Source: Terriglobia bacterium
Lineage (GTDB): Bacteria > Acidobacteriota > Terriglobia > Bryobacterales > Bryobacteraceae
DNA: 49,373 bases
Assembly: GCA_025358575.1 (NCBI GenBank)
Contig: JANYJA010000012.1
Location: 1 to 49,373 of the forward strand
Direction of reading: 5' to 3'
The notes under the pieces were generated by a model. It saw nothing but the letters and a program-made list of their open reading frames with translations. It was not told the origin of the DNA and did not search any database. The stretch's first letter is position 1. Every line of letters starts with the position of its first letter. Position numbers and translations under genes: made by a program. Shown piece after piece: positions 4,329-40,101 of this stretch.

Positions 4329-5805
4329 GGGCGGTTTCGCCCATCAGGAAGCGGTCGACTCCCCTGGCGGCCTGACGGCCCTCGGCTATCGCCCACACGA
4401 TTAGCGACTGGCCCCTCGACATGTCGCCGGCGGCGAAGACGCCCGGGACGCTGGTTTGCTTGTCGCTGCCAACCGCCACGTTGCCACGCTGGTCCAGCTT
4501 GACCTGAAGATCCGCCAGCAGGCCTTCGCGTTCGGGCCCGACAAATCCCATCGCCAGCAACACCAGGTCGGCGGGCAGCACACCTTCGGTGCCCGGGATC
4601 TCTTCAAAGCGCGGGGCGCCGCCCGGGCCGGCCGCCTTGCGGATGCCCACGACGTGAACGCTGCGCAGGTTGCCGTCGGTGTCGCCGACCAGGCGCTTGG
4701 TCTGCACGGCGTATTGCCGCGGGTCCGCGCCGAACAGGGCGGCGGCCTCCTCCTGCCCGTAGTCCATGCGATAGATCTTGGGCCACTGCGGCCACGGATT
4801 GTCGGACGCGCGATCGTCCGGCGGGCGCGGCAGGATTTCAAGCTGAACCAGGCTTTTGCAACCATGGCGCAGCGATGTGCCGACACAGTCCGTGCCGGTG
4901 TCACCGCCGCCGATGACGATGACATTCTTGTCCTTGGCCGAGATGTACTTGCCGTCCGCAAGGCCGCTGTCCAGCAAGCTTTTGGTCGACGCCGTCAGGA
5001 ATTCCATCGCGTAGTGGACGCCCTTCAGGCTGCGCCCCTCGACGCCCAGATCGCGCGCCCAGGTGGCCCCCCCGCACAGCACGACCGCGTCGGATTCCTC
5101 GCGCACCCGCGCCGTCGCGTAGTTCTTGCCCACCTCGACATTGGTCACGAAACGGACGCCTTCTTCCGCCAGCAACTTCACCCGCCGGTCGACCAGACCC
5201 TTGTCCAGCTTCATGGGTGGAATGCCGTACAGCAACAGCCCGCCGATGCGATCGGCGCGCTCGAACACCGTCACGGTATGCCCCGCCTTGTTCAACTCGG
5301 CCGCGCACGCCAGCCCCGCCGGTCCCGACCCGATAACCGCCACGCGCTTGCCGGTGCGCACGCTGGGCGGCTCGGCGACGATCCAGCCTTCGTCGAAGCC
5401 GCGATCAACGATGGACACCTCTATGCTTTTGATCGTCACGGCGGGCGAATTGATGCCCAGCACGCACGATCCCTCGCAAGGCGCCGGACAGACGCGACCG
5501 GTGAACTCGGGAAAGTTGTTGGTCTTGTGCAGGCGGTCCAGTGCCTCGCGCCAGCGGCCCCGATAGACCAGATCGTTCCATTCCGGGATGAGGTTGTTCA
5601 GCGGGCAGCCCGATGTCAGCCCTTCAATCAGCTTGCCGGTGTGGCAGAACGGCACGCCGCAGTCCATGCAGCGGGCGCCCTGCTCGCGCAACGTCTCCTC
5701 GGGCAGGTGTTCGTGAAATTCGCCCCAGCTTGCGATGCGTTCCCGGGGATGTCGGGAAATCGGAATCGTTCGCGGGTATTCAATGAAGCCAGTCGGCTTG
5801 CCCAT
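4321..5805 (-). CDS. gltD: Glutamate synthase (NADPH) small subunit
   Basis: The 494-aa product matches the full length of GltD. It supplies electrons from NADPH through FAD and Fe-S clusters to the large subunit for making glutamate from glutamine and 2-oxoglutarate. The N-terminal cysteine clusters are visible: CMDCGVPFC near residues 47-55, GCPLNN, and CPAPCEGSC near 107-115. The FAD dinucleotide fold is [15 protein letters not shown] and the NAD(P)H fold is [16 protein letters not shown]-terminal [14 protein letters not shown] flavin motif completes it. It starts 6 nt after the gltB stop, the usual gltBD arrangement. Its composition matches the high-GC left end rather than the genes beyond 8 kb. 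Confidence 0.97.
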
Positions 5806-30111: not shown

Positions 30112-31944
30112 TCACCACAAATATTCCTTTGCGATCTTGCGCTTGTCGTAGCCGTCCAGCACGTGCACCACGCGGATCTTCTTCAACGTAACAGGCGAAA
30201 GCTGGCCGATAGGGACGTAGATGATGGTTCGCCCATAACGGGCCGCAATGCTCCGGAACACCGAGCGCGGTGGTTTTGCAGCCACGTAAACCACGAACTT
30301 CTGGATGGAATAATCTAAACCCGCGAGCAGCAACCGCTCAGGCTTGTTCTCGGCGAAATCGTAATCGCCGTCCTGCCAAACGTCGTACATGCGCCGGGCC
30401 GGCAAGCTCATCAGAAATCCGCCGTACTCACCGCGCCCGATGCCCGGACCCACCATGTGATCGAACGGAAAAGTCGAATAGAAGGCCATATCCGATTCGT
30501 TCTGATTCTCGCCGAGCCATGTGGTCATGTACTGGCACCGGCCATCGCGGTCTTCGTCGAAAATCACAATCACCGAACCGACTTCACCCTGGATTTTCTG
30601 GTGATCGCGCACATAAATCCGCCCTTCATGCCAGTTGCGAATGGTCTCGCGGAGATCGATCCCGTCCAGCAGCGAAGTGGTAAACGGTTCCACGCGAGTG
30701 CGCTCTTCGGAAAGAATGCTCTTGCCTTTCTTCTTGAGAAAACGCCCGTAATCTTCAATCACCAAATCTTCCGGCGGATACGAACAGATGCTGGTGCCGT
30801 TAAGTTCGCTGGCCCACTCGCCGGGAATTGTCTCTTTCTTTCGAGGACGCAGACCGACGGGCCGCAGGCGACGCTTCTCACTGGGGAGGCGTCGGCGCAA
30901 ATGCAGTCGGCGGGTATCGATCCAGACCTCCTCACCCGAGATCTTGACTGTTGGAAGATCGGACTCGGTCTTCTGGAAAGTGTATTTGCCGGCATTTTCC
31001 CAAACTTCCCAAGCGTAGTTATCGTCAACAACGGAGCGCGCCGCGACGGTGAGATCGAAGAGCGAAGCTACCAATTCACGGCTGGTCACAGCGAGATTTC
31101 GCGTGTACCGGGCCAAAGTCCGGCGCTGCCAGTGAGCCACATGTTCACCCGTGGACGCCTCGTAAGACTTTTCAGCGGCCCTAAAAACGGCTGCCTGTGC
31201 GCGCCGCCGATCCACAATATTCGCATTGCCGGGTGAGTCGCGATCAAGCTCGTATTGTTGCTGGAGATACGGGTACTCGGCAGTTATTTCCGCAAGACAA
31301 TCGGGATGCGGGTTCAGAACTTGAATCCCTTCGCGCCGCACTCTGTTGAAAGGTTGCGCCTGCGGGCGCTCCATCGCGTCCAGCACCGGATCCAGCAGAT
31401 TCAGCGACACCACGACCAGCACTTTCGCCATCGGATCGATGCCTTGCAGCTTCCACGCGATGCCGCCGGCGTGCCGCTCTGTCGCCTCGGAACGCTCCTG
31501 AGGATACAGGCGGTAGCTCTCGATGTATCGTTCGCGCGTGATGGACCGGAGTGAATAGGTATCGGGGTACGCGTCGGGAAGATGAGGACGCGCGCCGGAA
31601 TCGGGGTCAATACAGACGACGCCGATATTCAACTCACGCGCCGTGCGAAAAGCCTCCGCAAAGGGGTCGGCTGGCTCGACGGGAACGTAGACGGCTTCAT
31701 CGTCCGAAAGCTGTTCGGAGTAAAAAATTACGGAGATCTGTGGCAGGCGCGAGACGGCCCGCTCGAATGCCTGTTGCAGAGTAACTGGAAGTTCAATCGC
31801 GACCACATCGGGCCGCGACCCCAAAATTTCCTGGCGAACTTCCCGCGCGAACTCCAGGCGGCCTGGAACCACCGGAAAGTATGTGAAACGCCCGCGCCGC
31901 AAGCTGCCGAAATCAGGAAGCGCCGGGTCGATTTCTTCGGGCAT
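30112..31944 (-). CDS. 610-aa MoxR-partner protein; possible TraB/ChaN-like N-terminal half
   Basis: I do not recognise this protein as a named family. Residues about 20-125 (GRLEFAREVRQEI, then RPDVVAIELPVTLQQAF, ISVIFYSE, DPFAEAFRTARELNIGVVCIDPD) resemble the start of DUF5682/TraB/ChaN-like proteins, which open with 'EIRPDAVLIEGP…' and are often encoded beside MoxR ATPases. The match is by pattern only and the His usual in that fold is not evident. A basic middle part (HLRRRLPSEKRRLRP) follows. The C-terminal about 170 residues contain VIVIFDEDRDG, WLGENQNESDMAFYS and LSPVTLKKIRV. There are no membrane segments. Its start overlaps the MoxR gene by 32 nt. Confidence 0.75.
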   Translation of the reverse strand: MPEEIDPALPDFGSLRRGRFTYFPVVPGRLEFAREVRQEILGSRPDVVAIELPVTLQQAFERAVSRLPQISVIFYSEQLSDDEAVYVPVEPADPFAEAFRTARELNIGVVCIDPDSGARPHLPDAYPDTYSLRSITRERYIESYRLYPQERSEATERHAGGIAWKLQGIDPMAKVLVVVSLNLLDPVLDAMERPQAQPFNRVRREGIQVLNPHPDCLAEITAEYPYLQQQYELDRDSPGNANIVDRRRAQAAVFRAAEKSYEASTGEHVAHWQRRTLARYTRNLAVTSRELVASLFDLTVAARSVVDDNYAWEVWENAGKYTFQKTESDLPTVKISGEEVWIDTRRLHLRRRLPSEKRRLRPVGLRPRKKETIPGEWASELNGTSICSYPPEDLVIEDYGRFLKKKGKSILSEERTRVEPFTTSLLDGIDLRETIRNWHEGRIYVRDHQKIQGEVGSVIVIFDEDRDGRCQYMTTWLGENQNESDMAFYSTFPFDHMVGPGIGRGEYGGFLMSLPARRMYDVWQDGDYDFAENKPERLLLAGLDYSIQKFVVYVAAKPPRSVFRSIAARYGRTIIYVPIGQLSPVTLKKIRVVHVLDGYDKRKIAKEYLW

Positions 31945-32755
31945 AGCGCAATGCTTCTTCTCCCAAGGTTTCTATCACCGCGGTCTCCAGCGCATCGGTC
32001 TCGTGGCTGGGCTGAGTGGCCAGGCTCTTCAGTTTGATGGCGAACCGCCCTATATTGATGCCGTCTCGAACGGTGTAGCGCTCATCGGCGGCGTGTGCCT
32101 GCTGAAGAAATTCGGTGACATAAAACAGAATCTTGTCCTCGGCGAAGGGCAGATTTTCCTTGAGGATGTGATACTCTTCATCGCGTTCGGGAAAGTCGAT
32201 GAAGATCTGCGGCTGCAAGCGCGAATGAATGTATTCAGGTAGTTCGAAGGTGGAAGCGTCGTCATTCATAGTGGTAACGAGGCGAAAACTCGGATGCGCT
32301 TTAATCTTGATGCCCGCGACCAGGGATTCCACATAGCGCCGGTTATCCAGCAGCGGCGCAAGGCTGGCCCAACTCTTCTCGCTCATTCTGTTGCCTTCAT
32401 CCAGAATGACGACGCCGCCGAGAATCATCGCCGTAACCAGCGGCGATGCGACATAGCGCAACTGCCTCGCGCCTTCAATCACGGGAGTGACGATCAAATC
32501 TTCAGGGCGGGTGTCTAGCGTCGCTTGCATGATGAAAACGTCGCGGCCCAACCGCTGGGCGGCCGCGTAGGCCAGCGTAGTCTTACCGACACCCGGCTTG
32601 CCGAGCAGGCGCGGGTTCATCGGAATGTCCTGGTCGTGCACCACCAGCCACGCCGCCAGCAACTGGCGCATCATTTCTTCTTGCCCAACCCAGCGGACAT
32701 TGAGCTGGTCGGGATGGGCCAGATGAAGGGTGACACCGTCAATTTCTACGATCAT
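31913..32755 (-). CDS. MoxR-family AAA+ ATPase
   Basis: The 280-aa product has Walker A GKPGVGKT (52-59), Walker B VVILDE (115-120), sensor 1 TTMN (161-164), and R179 in the arginine-finger position. The order and the absence of other domains fit MoxR-type chaperone ATPases, which usually act with a VWA protein or another partner. No VWA gene is adjacent here. The partner candidate is the 610-aa protein whose start lies inside this gene. The 5' end overlaps the upstream glycoamylase-like gene by 17 nt, suggesting translational coupling. Confidence 0.93.
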   Translation of the reverse strand: MIVEIDGVTLHLAHPDQLNVRWVGQEEMMRQLLAAWLVVHDQDIPMNPRLLGKPGVGKTTLAYAAAQRLGRDVFIMQATLDTRPEDLIVTPVIEGARQLRYVASPLVTAMILGGVVILDEGNRMSEKSWASLAPLLDNRRYVESLVAGIKIKAHPSFRLVTTMNDDASTFELPEYIHSRLQPQIFIDFPERDEEYHILKENLPFAEDKILFYVTEFLQQAHAADERYTVRDGINIGRFAIKLKSLATQPSHETDALETAVIETLGEEALRYARRNRPGAS

Positions 32756-33971
32756 GGATACCTGATTGTCGCAGAGAGCGCCCGTGCTTTTGGAAGCCGA
32801 TTCGCTGAAGCGCGCGCTGCATTTCCGGATTTGCCATGAACCATCGCCATACCTTTCCGGTCTTAAGATCTTCGGCGCTCAGCAGCGTGATACCCAGATC
32901 GATTCCGATCACATCGGGATCAATCCAGTTCTTCAGCGGATTGAAAGCATCCACAAAGCCGTAGCGGCCATAGATGGTGTCTCCATACTTCTGGCGCATA
33001 GCGGTGAGGGCTGCCGATGAGATGTCGCCCGTAAACATCAGGGATCCAGCGGGAGCCGAAGGGACAATGGTTCCGTCGATGGCGGGGTCGCGCGGGGGGC
33101 CGCCCCAGGCAACATAGCCAAACGGGCTGTCGGATGCGGAGATCCCCCAAATGTTCAGCGAGTAAGTGGCAAAGTCAGGGCTCAAATCCATGCAGAATGC
33201 GCGGTGCGCCAGGGTGGCGGTAATCGAATTGGCGAAGAAGTCGGTGTATGGCGGGCGGGATTCATTGAGATTTCGAAAGTCAATCCATGCTTGCGAATAC
33301 TGATGAGTGAATAGCGGTCCGCCGGACACGTAAGTGAAACCGGAGTAGGTGATGCGGGGCCTAAGCCATGCGCTCCAGCTTGCCACCGGGATCGGGTGTG
33401 TGGGCGACGCGATCGCTAGTAAGTAGAGGATCATGAGTTCGCTGTAAGTGTCCCACCGCGCAGGCAGAAAGCCGGACTCGGGCATCCATCCGTGGGAGAG
33501 AAGTGCTTTGTCACCGTTAAGCATCCAGGGAAAATCCACTTGTTCGTAAATTCGGCGGGCCAGTTTCGGAATTTCGGGATCGGTGGAGAATGCCTGCCGC
33601 GCGGTCAGAACTCCGGCCAGCAGCAGAGCAGTGTCGATCGACGAGAATTCGCTATTCCAGCGTCGCTGGCCCGTCGCTGGATCCATCCAATGATAAAACC
33701 AGCCATGTTCCCGCGGCGCGTTTTCGGCAAAGAAACGAAGCGTTCTCCGAACTTGGTCACGTGCCTCGGGTTCGCCGGTCCAATGGTGTGCGAAGCCGAT
33801 GGAAAGCGCGGTGAGTCCGAAGCCCGTCGCCGCGATGCTGGCAATTTGACCCCCGGGCGCTGAAGATGGCGAACCGTCGATGTGAGCGCGATCGCGAACG
33901 AGACCTGTTTTGGAATCGGCTTGCTCGATAAAGTATTGGAAGGACCGGCGCGACAAGTCATCGAGAAACAA
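32739..33971 (-). CDS. Glycoamylase-like secreted protein (PF10091-type)
   Basis: The frame gives 410 aa from TTG 33971. It resembles the glycoamylase-like (alpha/alpha)6 domain: SFQYFIEQADSKTGLVRDRA near the start, then HGWFYHWMD, SEFSSIDTALLLAGVL, GGPLFTHQYSQAWIDFR, WGISASDSPFGYVAWG and VDAFNPLKNW. Upstream codons in the same frame encode a signal peptide (VRLAAILFISAAASKAA) back to an ATA at 34037 preceded by GAGGTGAT, so the functional start is probably there and non-canonical. It would act on beta- or alpha-glucans in the periplasm. It is preceded by the GH39-like gene and followed by moxR with overlap. Confidence 0.88.
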   Translation of the reverse strand: MFLDDLSRRSFQYFIEQADSKTGLVRDRAHIDGSPSSAPGGQIASIAATGFGLTALSIGFAHHWTGEPEARDQVRRTLRFFAENAPREHGWFYHWMDPATGQRRWNSEFSSIDTALLLAGVLTARQAFSTDPEIPKLARRIYEQVDFPWMLNGDKALLSHGWMPESGFLPARWDTYSELMILYLLAIASPTHPIPVASWSAWLRPRITYSGFTYVSGGPLFTHQYSQAWIDFRNLNESRPPYTDFFANSITATLAHRAFCMDLSPDFATYSLNIWGISASDSPFGYVAWGGPPRDPAIDGTIVPSAPAGSLMFTGDISSAALTAMRQKYGDTIYGRYGFVDAFNPLKNWIDPDVIGIDLGITLLSAEDLKTGKVWRWFMANPEMQRALQRIGFQKHGRSLRQSGIHDRRN

Positions 33972-34033
33972 GTTGTCATGAGTCGCAGCCTTGGATGCCG
34001 CGGCAGATATGAAAAGGATTGCAGCAAGACGAA

Positions 34034-35530
34034 CTATGGGATCACCTCAACCAGCGCCAGACTATGCGCGGGCAGACTTAGTGAAACCGATCCGAAAAAC
34101 GGGCGAACTTCCGCGGGCGGCATTTGGCCTGCGGCGCGCAATAGTTTCTGCTGCTCGCGGCTGGGGAAGTCGGGGCGGCCCATGGCTTCCCAGGCGGTAA
34201 GTGCCGACCCATGATCTTGATCGAGCAAGCGAACGCGGACCCGATGGAATTGGGAGACGTGTTCGATAGTAACTTCAACCTGCTTTGGGCTTCCGATCTG
34301 GTCGGCCGGGACGTAATTCCACACGGCTAGAACCAGGGATTTGTCGGCGCGCCGCGTCGCGATGATCGAATCGGAACGCAGGGGAATCCTCTCAGTTCCA
34401 AGGTCGTGCAGCATGGCAAATGCATTGAAAGCGGGTTTCGGGATTCCGTCCACAGCGATTAGGCCGTAACCTCCATAAAATGGTTTCTTGACGACGCCTT
34501 GTTCTTCAAAAACATCCGAGAAGCCCCAGTAAGCCATGGTGGTCACGAGCCCGTCGCAAAGCCGAATGTTATTAGCCAGCCAGGGCCCCATGTAAGTGGA
34601 ATCGGTGACCTGAACGTCGTTTAAATAAGTCGCGTTATATTCAGTAAAAAGGATCGGTAACGCCGGCATCGCCGAAGCTTTAACTTGGTCGAACACCTTG
34701 CGGGCAGCGCGGGCCACCATGTCGCTTTGAGGAATCCGCTCGTCGGTTCCGAAGACATCTTTCGCGGATTCGTTTCCGTACACGTGGGTTGACGCGAAAT
34801 CGACCGGAACGTGGCGCTTTGCGCAATGATCGATGAACCGGTCAACCCAGGCAGCCTGCGCGGTGGAGGGACCTCCGACTCGAAGCCGACGATCGGCCTT
34901 TTTCACAGCAGCCGCCGCAGAGTCGTAGAGATGAAAGTAGGTTTCTTCTTTGGGCTCACCGCTCCAGAAATCGATATTCGGTTCGTTCCAAACTTCGAAA
35001 TACCACTGGCTGACCTCGTCGATGCCATAACGCTGGATAAGATGCTGCGTGAATCGAAAAACGAGCTCGGCCCAGCGGTCGTAGTCCTTGGGCGGATTAG
35101 GAAACGGTTTGTACCAGAAAGGATGAAGATGATCCGTGGCCGACAGCTTGCGCGGCATAAAACTAAGCTCCACGAAGGGGCGAACATTCCGCTCCAGGAG
35201 CCCATCGTATATCTGATCGACATAAGAGAAGTTATAGACCGGTTTACCTTGTGCGTCCTCGTCGTACACGCCAAGTTCATCGTGGAAAATAGCGTGGAAG
35301 CGAACATACGAAAAGCCGGTAGCCTTCTTAGTTGCGGTCAAATCGCGGCGATAACTCTCGCGAAGAGAAAGCCCCGCGCGGCCAGAGCCGAACATCTGCT
35401 CCCAGAAATGCGGGAATGGCTTCCCTGGGGCGTCGGCACGAATGCCGATTCGCTCAATGGCTAACGGCTGGGCGGGACCAAATACGCTCCCAGCCAGCAG
35501 GCAGATGATGAGCTCAACGCGGCGTGCCAT
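34034..35530 (-). CDS. GH39-like glycoside hydrolase (beta-xylosidase type)
   Basis: The 498-aa product has a signal peptide (LIICLLAGSVFGPAQP) and a (beta/alpha)8 barrel with the acid/base Glu in YFEVWNEPNIDFW and the nucleophile Glu in ILFTEYNATY. Further GH39 marks are FSYVRFHAIFHDELGVYDE and a C-terminal beta-sandwich (LVLAVWNYV, then VTIEHVSQFHRVRVRLLDQDHGSA). It probably cleaves xylo-oligosaccharides or related glycosides in the periplasm. It starts 7 nt after the TonB-dependent receptor stop, so the two form an operon. Confidence 0.93.
   Translation of the reverse strand: MARRVELIICLLAGSVFGPAQPLAIERIGIRADAPGKPFPHFWEQMFGSGRAGLSLRESYRRDLTATKKATGFSYVRFHAIFHDELGVYDEDAQGKPVYNFSYVDQIYDGLLERNVRPFVELSFMPRKLSATDHLHPFWYKPFPNPPKDYDRWAELVFRFTQHLIQRYGIDEVSQWYFEVWNEPNIDFWSGEPKEETYFHLYDSAAAAVKKADRRLRVGGPSTAQAAWVDRFIDHCAKRHVPVDFASTHVYGNESAKDVFGTDERIPQSDMVARAARKVFDQVKASAMPALPILFTEYNATYLNDVQVTDSTYMGPWLANNIRLCDGLVTTMAYWGFSDVFEEQGVVKKPFYGGYGLIAVDGIPKPAFNAFAMLHDLGTERIPLRSDSIIATRRADKSLVLAVWNYVPADQIGSPKQVEVTIEHVSQFHRVRVRLLDQDHGSALTAWEAMGRPDFPSREQQKLLRAAGQMPPAEVRPFFGSVSLSLPAHSLALVEVIP
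34035..34048 (-). promoter_or_regulatory. Ribosome site followed by ATA instead of a normal start codon
   Basis: On the minus strand GAGGTGAT (34048-34041), then CCC, then ATA (34037-34035) lead into an in-frame signal peptide of the glycoamylase-like gene. The next standard start in frame is TTG 33971, which would remove the signal peptide. The ATA overlaps the TAG stop of the GH39-like gene. Confidence 0.5.
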
Positions 35531-39003: not shown

Positions 39004-40101
39004 CTAACGCGAGGGCTTGCCTAACACGCAAAGGGGATCGCCAATCACAATATTCATCCAGCTCACCGCGGGTATTGAAAGGTAGTAACTCTCGGCCAGA
39101 TTCCGACCACTATAATATGCGGGCAATAAGAAATCCGGCCGGGGGGTGAGGTGCAGGTAAGGCTCGTAGACGTGCCCAGAGCAGCCGGTTGCCCCGGAAT
39201 GAATGTAATCCGCGGAAAGAGTTTGCGGCGCGCCGGCAAACCAAGAGGCTTGGTTTGGCCATGTACCCAATGTCCAACTCGCGGGAGGACGCGCAAAGGT
39301 GCGGCCGTTAGTCGAAACAAACTCGGTGACGATGGCGCCCGGAAGCCAGCGAAAGTTCAGGTCGCGCGTCTTGCGGTCGGGGTCATTTGATCCCCATGAC
39401 GCATATCCGATCACGTCCTTCTGGCCCATGACGACAGTCCCAGTGTCTTCCAGGAAAACACGGTCCTTTGGCAGCTTTTCGGCGGCCGCGCGAAGCCAGC
39501 CGTTGCCCGGCAAATTGTTATCCGCCCGAAGATCCACCACGAACTTGCCGGTGTTGCGAGCTTCCAAAGAGCGGTCAATCAAACCGCGAACGTCTTCGTA
39601 ATCGTAGCCGGCTAACCGGGTCACCAAGTAGATGGGTGCCGCGGTATGGTTGAATGCGGCCTCGCGCTGCCCAAAAAAAGGGTTTCGCAGCGGGCCGGAA
39701 AGCTCGTGCGGCTTGCCCTTCAACTGGGAATATAGCAGAGTCAACTCGGAATCGACCGAGGCGGCATCGCTTTCGAGCGCGGTCCCCGAGCCGGATATTT
39801 TCAGAGGCACGCCGAGGGTAGTAGCGATGTAATAGATTTGTTCCTCCAGATGCTGCTTTCGCAGGAAAGCGGCAATGACCGCTTCGATCTTATTACTGTA
39901 GTTATCGCGAGAAATTTCTTCTTGCGGGGAGACGTCTATGATGCAAACGTTGGCCGGCGGCAGAAGACGCCTGTGGGCGTAGTAAGCTCCGATTTTTTGC
40001 GAGACGGAAGATTGCTTGTTGACAATGAGGAGAACGCGGCTGCTATCCTGTGCCACTAGAGCCGTGCCGAAAAGCAGCGTGGAAAGGGCGCAACAATACA
40101 C
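39004..40101 (-). CDS. TIGR03790 family exported protein
   Basis: The 365-aa product starts with GTG 40101 and a short signal peptide (ALSTLLFGTALVAQ). The features of TIGR03790 are present: IGAYYAHRRLLPPANVCIIDV, YIATTLGVPLKI, YLVTRLAGYDYEDVRGLIDRSL, GATGCSGHVYEPYLHLTP and SWMNIVIGDPLC. The family is found in Acidobacteria, Planctomycetes and some others; its function is unknown. It is divergent from a LysR-family gene over 63 bp, which may be a shared control region. Confidence 0.9.
   Translation of the reverse strand: MYCCALSTLLFGTALVAQDSSRVLLIVNKQSSVSQKIGAYYAHRRLLPPANVCIIDVSPQEEISRDNYSNKIEAVIAAFLRKQHLEEQIYYIATTLGVPLKISGSGTALESDAASVDSELTLLYSQLKGKPHELSGPLRNPFFGQREAAFNHTAAPIYLVTRLAGYDYEDVRGLIDRSLEARNTGKFVVDLRADNNLPGNGWLRAAAEKLPKDRVFLEDTGTVVMGQKDVIGYASWGSNDPDRKTRDLNFRWLPGAIVTEFVSTNGRTFARPPASWTLGTWPNQASWFAGAPQTLSADYIHSGATGCSGHVYEPYLHLTPRPDFLLPAYYSGRNLAESYYLSIPAVSWMNIVIGDPLCVLGKPSR

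Follow-up and report, generated by a model that had tools for sequence, protein, structure and literature searches.

A PF10091 enzyme gene without a canonical start codon behind a GH39-like gene in a Terriglobia bacterium: a candidate AUA start at a stop codon overlap

Natural translation starts at AUA are reported for infC, ccpN and citZ of Staphylococcus aureus (PMC13009471). According to that report, the AUA sites are supported by retapamulin ribosome profiling and, for ccpN and citZ, by reporters. The non-canonical sites tested (AUU of cvfC1, AUA of ccpN and citZ) reached about 10% of the AUG level in poor medium, and the AUA of ccpN gave up to 30% of AUG in rich medium. The same source describes an extended Shine-Dalgarno motif predicted for infC, cvfC1 and ccpN, and a non-canonical start that is conserved in relatives for ccpN and lineage-limited for citZ (PMC13009471). 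An AUA can amount to loss of the gene as well, as indicated by the spontaneous ATG-to-ATA mutant of Bdellovibrio bd0108, which is reported to behave like other bd0108 mutants, the wild-type gene giving a gain in plaquing (PMC3818213). A stop/start overlap with the ribosome-binding site inside the upstream gene is described as a usual setting of termination-reinitiation (PMC6728339, PMC12548453). Our literature search on AUA start codons in Acidobacteria translation found no paper.

The DNA analysed here comes from contig 155 of the draft genome of a Terriglobia bacterium (G000; 261 contigs, 4.77 Mb, 95.6% complete, 1.05% contamination), and by the window we mean the whole stretch of 49,373 nucleotides. 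On its minus strand, a GH39-like gene is followed by a PF10091 gene whose signal-like N-terminus is preceded by ATA in place of a normal start. The features are as follows.

34034..35530, minus strand: GH39-like (beta-xylosidase-like) gene, an open reading frame with PF01229 at E 4.6e-102
34036-34034, minus strand: TAG stop of the GH39-like gene, from the open reading frame
34041..34048, minus strand: GAGGTGAT, a strong Shine-Dalgarno-like site within the GH39 tail, from its duplex (-11.9 kcal/mol) and the distribution of GAGG in GH39 tails
34047..34049, minus strand: TGA, the in-frame stop from which the enzyme frame opens, from the sequence
34035..34037, minus strand: ATA, candidate start codon with two bases in common with the GH39 stop, from the sequence and the junctions of relatives
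34032..34034, minus strand: GTT, the codon after ATA and an alternative start remnant, from the L081 and L084 junctions
33972..34037, minus strand: [I/M]VRLAAILFISAAASKAATHDN, a segment resembling a signal peptide but lacking a normal start codon, from the sequence and hydrophobicity
33969..33971, minus strand: TTG, first canonical start in the enzyme frame, at the edge of the enzyme domain and without a ribosome-binding site (-2.6 kcal/mol)
32739..34037, minus strand: glycoamylase-like or beta-1,2-glucanase-like gene (PF10091, E 2.5e-64) with an intact frame

The 3' end of the GH39 frame reads GTT GAG GTG ATC CCA TAG and the enzyme frame reads TGA GGT GAT CCC ATA GTT CGT CTT GCT GCA ATC CTT TTC (both on the minus strand), the latter translating as GDPIVRLAAILFISAAASKAATHDNLFLDDL after the TGA at 34049-34047. 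The initial annotation had stated that no ordinary start precedes the signal frame, and indeed there is no ATG, GTG or TTG in the enzyme frame between this TGA and TTG 33971 on the minus strand. A start at TTG 33971, the nearest normal one, would cost the entire hydrophobic stretch, also as stated there. The absence of a start codon is therefore real in the sequence as given. The claims about the overlap are correct too: ATA shares two bases with the TAG at 34036-34034, and putting ATG in its place would convert this TAG into TGG and leave the GH39 frame open to 33605. The ATA does come after the putative ribosome-binding site, as had been noted; the layout needs to be corrected in that three bases, CCC, intervene between GAGGTGAT and ATA, and in that the strand is minus.

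The enzyme matches PF10091 with 217.3 bits against a curated cut-off of 27 (E 2.5e-64). Eight solved sequences match it, with XCC2207 (8xul, E 2.6e-64) being the best; three others are named putative glucoamylase (3eu8, 4qt9, 4gl3), and the endo-beta-1,2-glucanase 5gzh matches at E 1.7e-51. XCC2207 is reported to be XcSGL, a GH144 enzyme (PMC12102758), and the Pfam name 'glycoamylase' may be misleading for the protein studied here. The best solved chains for the GH39 partner are beta-xylosidases; its N-terminus, MARRVELIICLLAGSVFG, is signal-like too, as judged by eye. The last 17 bases of the PF10091 gene are shared with the beginning of an AAA ATPase gene (PF07728), which we take to be MoxR-like (window 32739-32755, minus strand). 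Two more open frames on the minus strand of the window, at 30112-31944 and 39004-40101 (610 and 365 residues), have no Pfam match at E 0.001.

Relatives of the enzyme were collected by searching the family (150, then 237 genomes) and the order (257 genomes) and by a scan of public genomes (33 loci). Matches were found in 79 of the 237 genomes of the family search and likewise in 79 of the 257 genomes of the order search, where all matches listed belonged to the same family. After removal of duplicates, the retrieved loci held 75 distinct near-full-length enzyme places, this gene included. An ATG, GTG or TTG is present at least 15 codons before the domain in 73 of them by a lax criterion that counts any such codon in the open frame, and the two exceptions are this gene and a second copy in L073 that is truncated by the locus edge. 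Among the other 74 places, 71 have a canonical start 15-60 codons ahead of the domain. ATA as the sole start was found at none of the enzyme places examined. The genus is represented by one genome, from which conservation of the odd codon within the genus is not observable. In the relative with loci L015 / L077 (G058 contig 656) the enzyme gene is present in two tandem copies, the first beginning with DPMMRF where DPIVRL stands here.

Downstream of GH39 genes, the enzyme gene begins within 160 bases in 9 of 32 tails, this one included; on three other contigs (G137 contig 339, G116 contig 317 and G014 contig 39) a glucanase-like gene precedes rather than follows the GH39 gene. The initial annotation had proposed to compare the overlap with that of homologues. 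The three junctions with the highest GH39 identity (65-68%), namely L081, L084 (the same place as L066) and L067, all have ATG followed by QRRTAI or LRRTAI, their sequences being GAGGTGGTCCCCTGATGCAG (L081), GAGGTAGTCCGCTGATGCAG (L084 = L066) and GAGGTAACCCATTAGATGCTT (L067) versus GAGGTGATCCCATAGTTCGT here. Judged from these alignments, the relatives' ATG has no counterpart here, whichever register is used. If the signal peptide defines the register, ATA sits at the relatives' ATG. In L081 and L084, stop and start share one base (TGATG), and in that register it is GTT that matches ATG (TG-A-TG versus TA-G-TT, 10 from GAGG in each). The L067 junction has no overlap. Nucleotide alignment does not pair ATA with ATG but opens a gap of 4 bases where the relatives have their start region, so that the start may equally well have gone by a small deletion at the junction or by a substitution. 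The protein register favours ATA over GTT, but an identity of about 60% is too low to settle the history, and either ATA or the GTT after it may be the remnant of the start. The GH39 protein ends here as it does in its relatives, with Glu-Val plus two codons in L081, L066, L067 and L083.

To evaluate the signal-like character of the N-terminus, open stretches of 22 codons were sampled at random from 290 kb of this genome, including the window. An 11-residue stretch this hydrophobic (mean Kyte-Doolittle 2.51) occurred in 152 of 20000 such stretches, and in 56 of 20000 when K or R was also required within the first six residues. At a lower threshold (mean 1.6), 60 of the 73 relatives with a canonical start carry an 11-residue hydrophobic stretch, which runs against the possibility, raised in the initial annotation, that homologues lack a signal peptide; the RRx[FLAMI] motif is present in 37 of the 73. 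The sequence after ATA, VRLAAIL, resembles QRRTAIL, QRRTAIL and LRRTAIM of the three closest syntenic relatives, against which the score is 17.0 in the ATA register and 1.3 in the GTT register; only 10 of 3000 shuffles show as much likeness, i.e. reach 17.0. Against six N-termini picked by eye, 87 of 20000 shuffles did as well. A family-wide likeness was absent in a test with 56 relatives of at least 48% identity whose start lies 15-60 codons upstream (0.18 for the ATA register, 0.12 for the GTT register, a score reached by 967 of 3000 shuffles), because N-termini vary widely in the PF10091 family. The argument from likeness therefore rests on close relatives, and the signal frame is, as far as such comparisons go, beyond chance by hydrophobicity and by its closest relatives but not by family-wide conservation. 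Close relatives carry a twin-arginine pair (MQRRTAI; SRRxFL in others), and the segment at 34037-33972 (minus strand of the window) has leucine as the second residue of the pair. Since the second arginine is replaced by leucine, the export route of the enzyme may have changed from Tat to Sec.

Duplex energies were calculated with an assumed 16S 3' end (anti-Shine-Dalgarno), a search for 16S in this genome having given no match. With this assumption, GAGGTGAT pairs at -11.9 kcal/mol, compared with -11.6 for L081, -10.7 for L084 and -10.7 for L067, making the site here the strongest of the four junctions compared. TTG 33971 has only -2.6 kcal/mol and no ribosome-binding site. GAGG lies 7 nt from ATA, versus 10 to 11 nt from the start in the three closest relatives. 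Within the last 24 nt of GH39, GAGG is found in 6 of 9 tails that have the enzyme gene after them and in 2 of 23 that do not (Fisher p 0.002, which overstates independence as the six are close relatives); it is missing from 3 of the 9. That GAGG tends to occur where the enzyme gene follows suggests a function of the site for this second gene. The idea that GAGGTG merely represents GH39 codons for a conserved Glu-Val is weakened by the same counts. RNA folding of the junction revealed no stable structure over the site (z 1.41).

Taking these data together, we consider weak initiation on AUA following GH39 termination to be the best reading, albeit one held with somewhat less than even confidence. 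The GH39 and PF10091 genes form a tight pair, with stop and start touching or overlapping in the closest relatives. Ribosomes terminating GH39 at UAG would be retained by GAGGUGAU and would restart, inefficiently, on the AUA overlapping the stop, the resulting AUAG overlap being equal in length to the common AUGA. The product would be an exported enzyme of 432 residues, made at a reduced dose. That AUA is read, that its reading is coupled to GH39 and that the yield is low are all three things we infer. Speaking against them are the gap over the relatives' ATG in the nucleotide alignment and the occurrence of the odd codon in a single genome, unlike the situation in ccpN. It is tempting to go further and to regard AUAG as a fixed, working overlap in which an 8-base Shine-Dalgarno helix holds post-termination ribosomes for restart on AUA, building in a low ratio of the glucanase-like enzyme to GH39; this stronger version we find distinctly improbable. 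The initial annotation had offered a choice between ATA used through coupling and a base error. The strong site that has been kept and the signal-like N-termini of relatives speak for the former, whereas a simple ATG-to-ATA error appears unlikely, and a third option has to be added, in which the start is lost and the gene either decays or yields a short cytoplasmic form.

According to this third option, a small deletion or a substitution at the junction has truly removed the start, and the gene is in early decay or gives traces of a non-exported form from TTG 33971. We regard it as unlikely, yet as a serious contender. The gap of 4 bases in the nucleotide alignment is consistent with it, as is the precedent of the ATG-to-ATA mutant in Bdellovibrio (PMC3818213). 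In an alignment of 60 sequences, the enzyme has altered two residues (R to Q and N to D) at positions invariant in the other 59, and only 3 of the 60 sequences retain a smaller share of conserved columns, which makes it the fourth lowest. Its terminal branch is also long (0.324, where the median is 0.184 and the upper quartile 0.235), although this is as expected of a lone genus, represented here by one genome. On the other hand, the frame is open over 432 codons, 48 of the 50 columns that are each at least 97% conserved in the 59 relatives are retained, and the root-to-tip distance in a midpoint-rooted tree is short (54th longest of 60, with six shorter). The ribosome-binding site is retained at full strength, and the short form would have to start from TTG 33971, at the domain edge and without such a site. 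The evidence from conservation is thus mixed but seems closer to that expected of an intact gene.

An error of consensus or assembly, or a strain mosaic, could also produce the observed junction, in which case the organism itself has a canonical start there. The genome is a draft in 261 contigs, and this is the sole place of 75 that lacks an upstream start and is not cut by a locus edge. An error at ATA itself, the base change at 34035 suggested in the initial annotation, is unlikely, since ATG would cost GH39 its stop, whereas its terminus agrees with those in L081, L066, L067 and L083. By contrast, an error in the adjoining codon would leave the GH39 stop as it is and would fit both genes as well as the geometry of relatives: that codon is one substitution away from a standard start, which would restore the one-base overlap of L081 and L084 at the same 10-nt distance from GAGG. 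However, a single error would have to hit this one particular codon, while both frames are intact elsewhere, and on the whole we find this explanation fairly improbable.

Initiation on the GTT at 34034-34032 would preserve the stop/start overlap of relatives, with identical geometry and the same distance of 10 from GAGG as in L081 and L084, but it gives the poor protein register mentioned above (1.3 versus 17.0 against the three syntenic relatives). Near-cognate starts as a rule differ from AUG by a single change, and GUU differs by two, which makes this option very unlikely. A -1 ribosome slip at CCA-TAG, fusing GH39 to the second enzyme, is hardly credible: relative to GH39 the enzyme is read in the -1 frame, and CCC offers a site for re-pairing, but the closest relatives have a separate ATG, the genes are non-overlapping in L067 and the signal peptide would be buried in the fused protein.

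We also looked at the genomic background for features that bear on initiation. Initiation factor IF3, encoded by infC, rejects non-AUG starts. No infC match was detected in this genome, either by family or by the protein of a relative, whereas 57 of 60 other genomes have the gene; the missing match is probably due to an assembly gap at 95.6% completeness. The rplT gene lies here near a contig end, but its location could not settle the absence since infC is not beside rplT in two relatives (gene lists inspected by eye). If the IF3 gene were truly absent, AUA-type starts could be tolerated more widely in the lineage. Among 30 of the 42 tRNA matches, scanned as loci together with flanks, both methionine tRNAs reported have anticodon CAT and no TAT anticodon was reported. 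A codon-score scan for startless genes over 380,665 bases of the same genome covered 194 genes, 9 of them with a lost score above 3; the present enzyme was not flagged, its signal region being too short to register, and so the scan gives no base rate. Elsewhere in this genome (G000 contig 100), the plus strand of L121 has at 4860-5249 an open frame, presumably ParB-like, that runs from IAACIREFGFTNPLLVDTNAGIIASHGRLLAARKL and has its first canonical start 34 codons in; it is possibly a broken gene.

The question of whether AUA is used has consequences in either case. Prodigal is described as considering AUG, GUG and UUG only (PMC4444185), and with this set of starts a standard pipeline would begin the enzyme at TTG 33971 and miss the export signal. 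Should the cell read AUA, the range of natural AUA starts would come to include an exported enzyme and an overlap of stop and start; otherwise the locus would be a clean example of a gene that has lost its start codon and is intact elsewhere.

How, then, does the locus compare with the described systems? Here the AUA is in frame, no canonical start gives the full protein, and there is a long Shine-Dalgarno match, with GAGG 7 nt from ATA, to the 16S 3' end that we assumed. The odd start is not seen to be conserved in relatives, as the closest junctions have ATG and the genus is represented by one genome. The gene thus resembles the S. aureus AUA genes, as reported (PMC13009471), in having AUA instead of AUG behind a long Shine-Dalgarno match and in the low yield to be expected; it differs from them in being known as a sequence in one genome, and in encoding an enzyme with an export signal whose start would overlap an upstream stop. 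With overlapping coupled pairs, as described in PMC6728339 and PMC12548453, it shares the same strand, the overlap of stop and candidate start, and a site inside the upstream gene. The relatives L081 and L084 are UGAUG pairs of this kind. At the present junction there is no standard NTG start, ATA and TAG share two bases, which counts only if ATA is the start, and coupling is putative. Compared with the PF10091 / GH144 beta-1,2-glucanases (8xul, 5gzh; PMC12102758), the domain and the length are alike and the N-terminus is signal-like in frame; the differences are that the signal here lacks a canonical start and that beta-1,2-glucanase activity is putative. Starts at AUA being already known, this gene would be a candidate for a further case.
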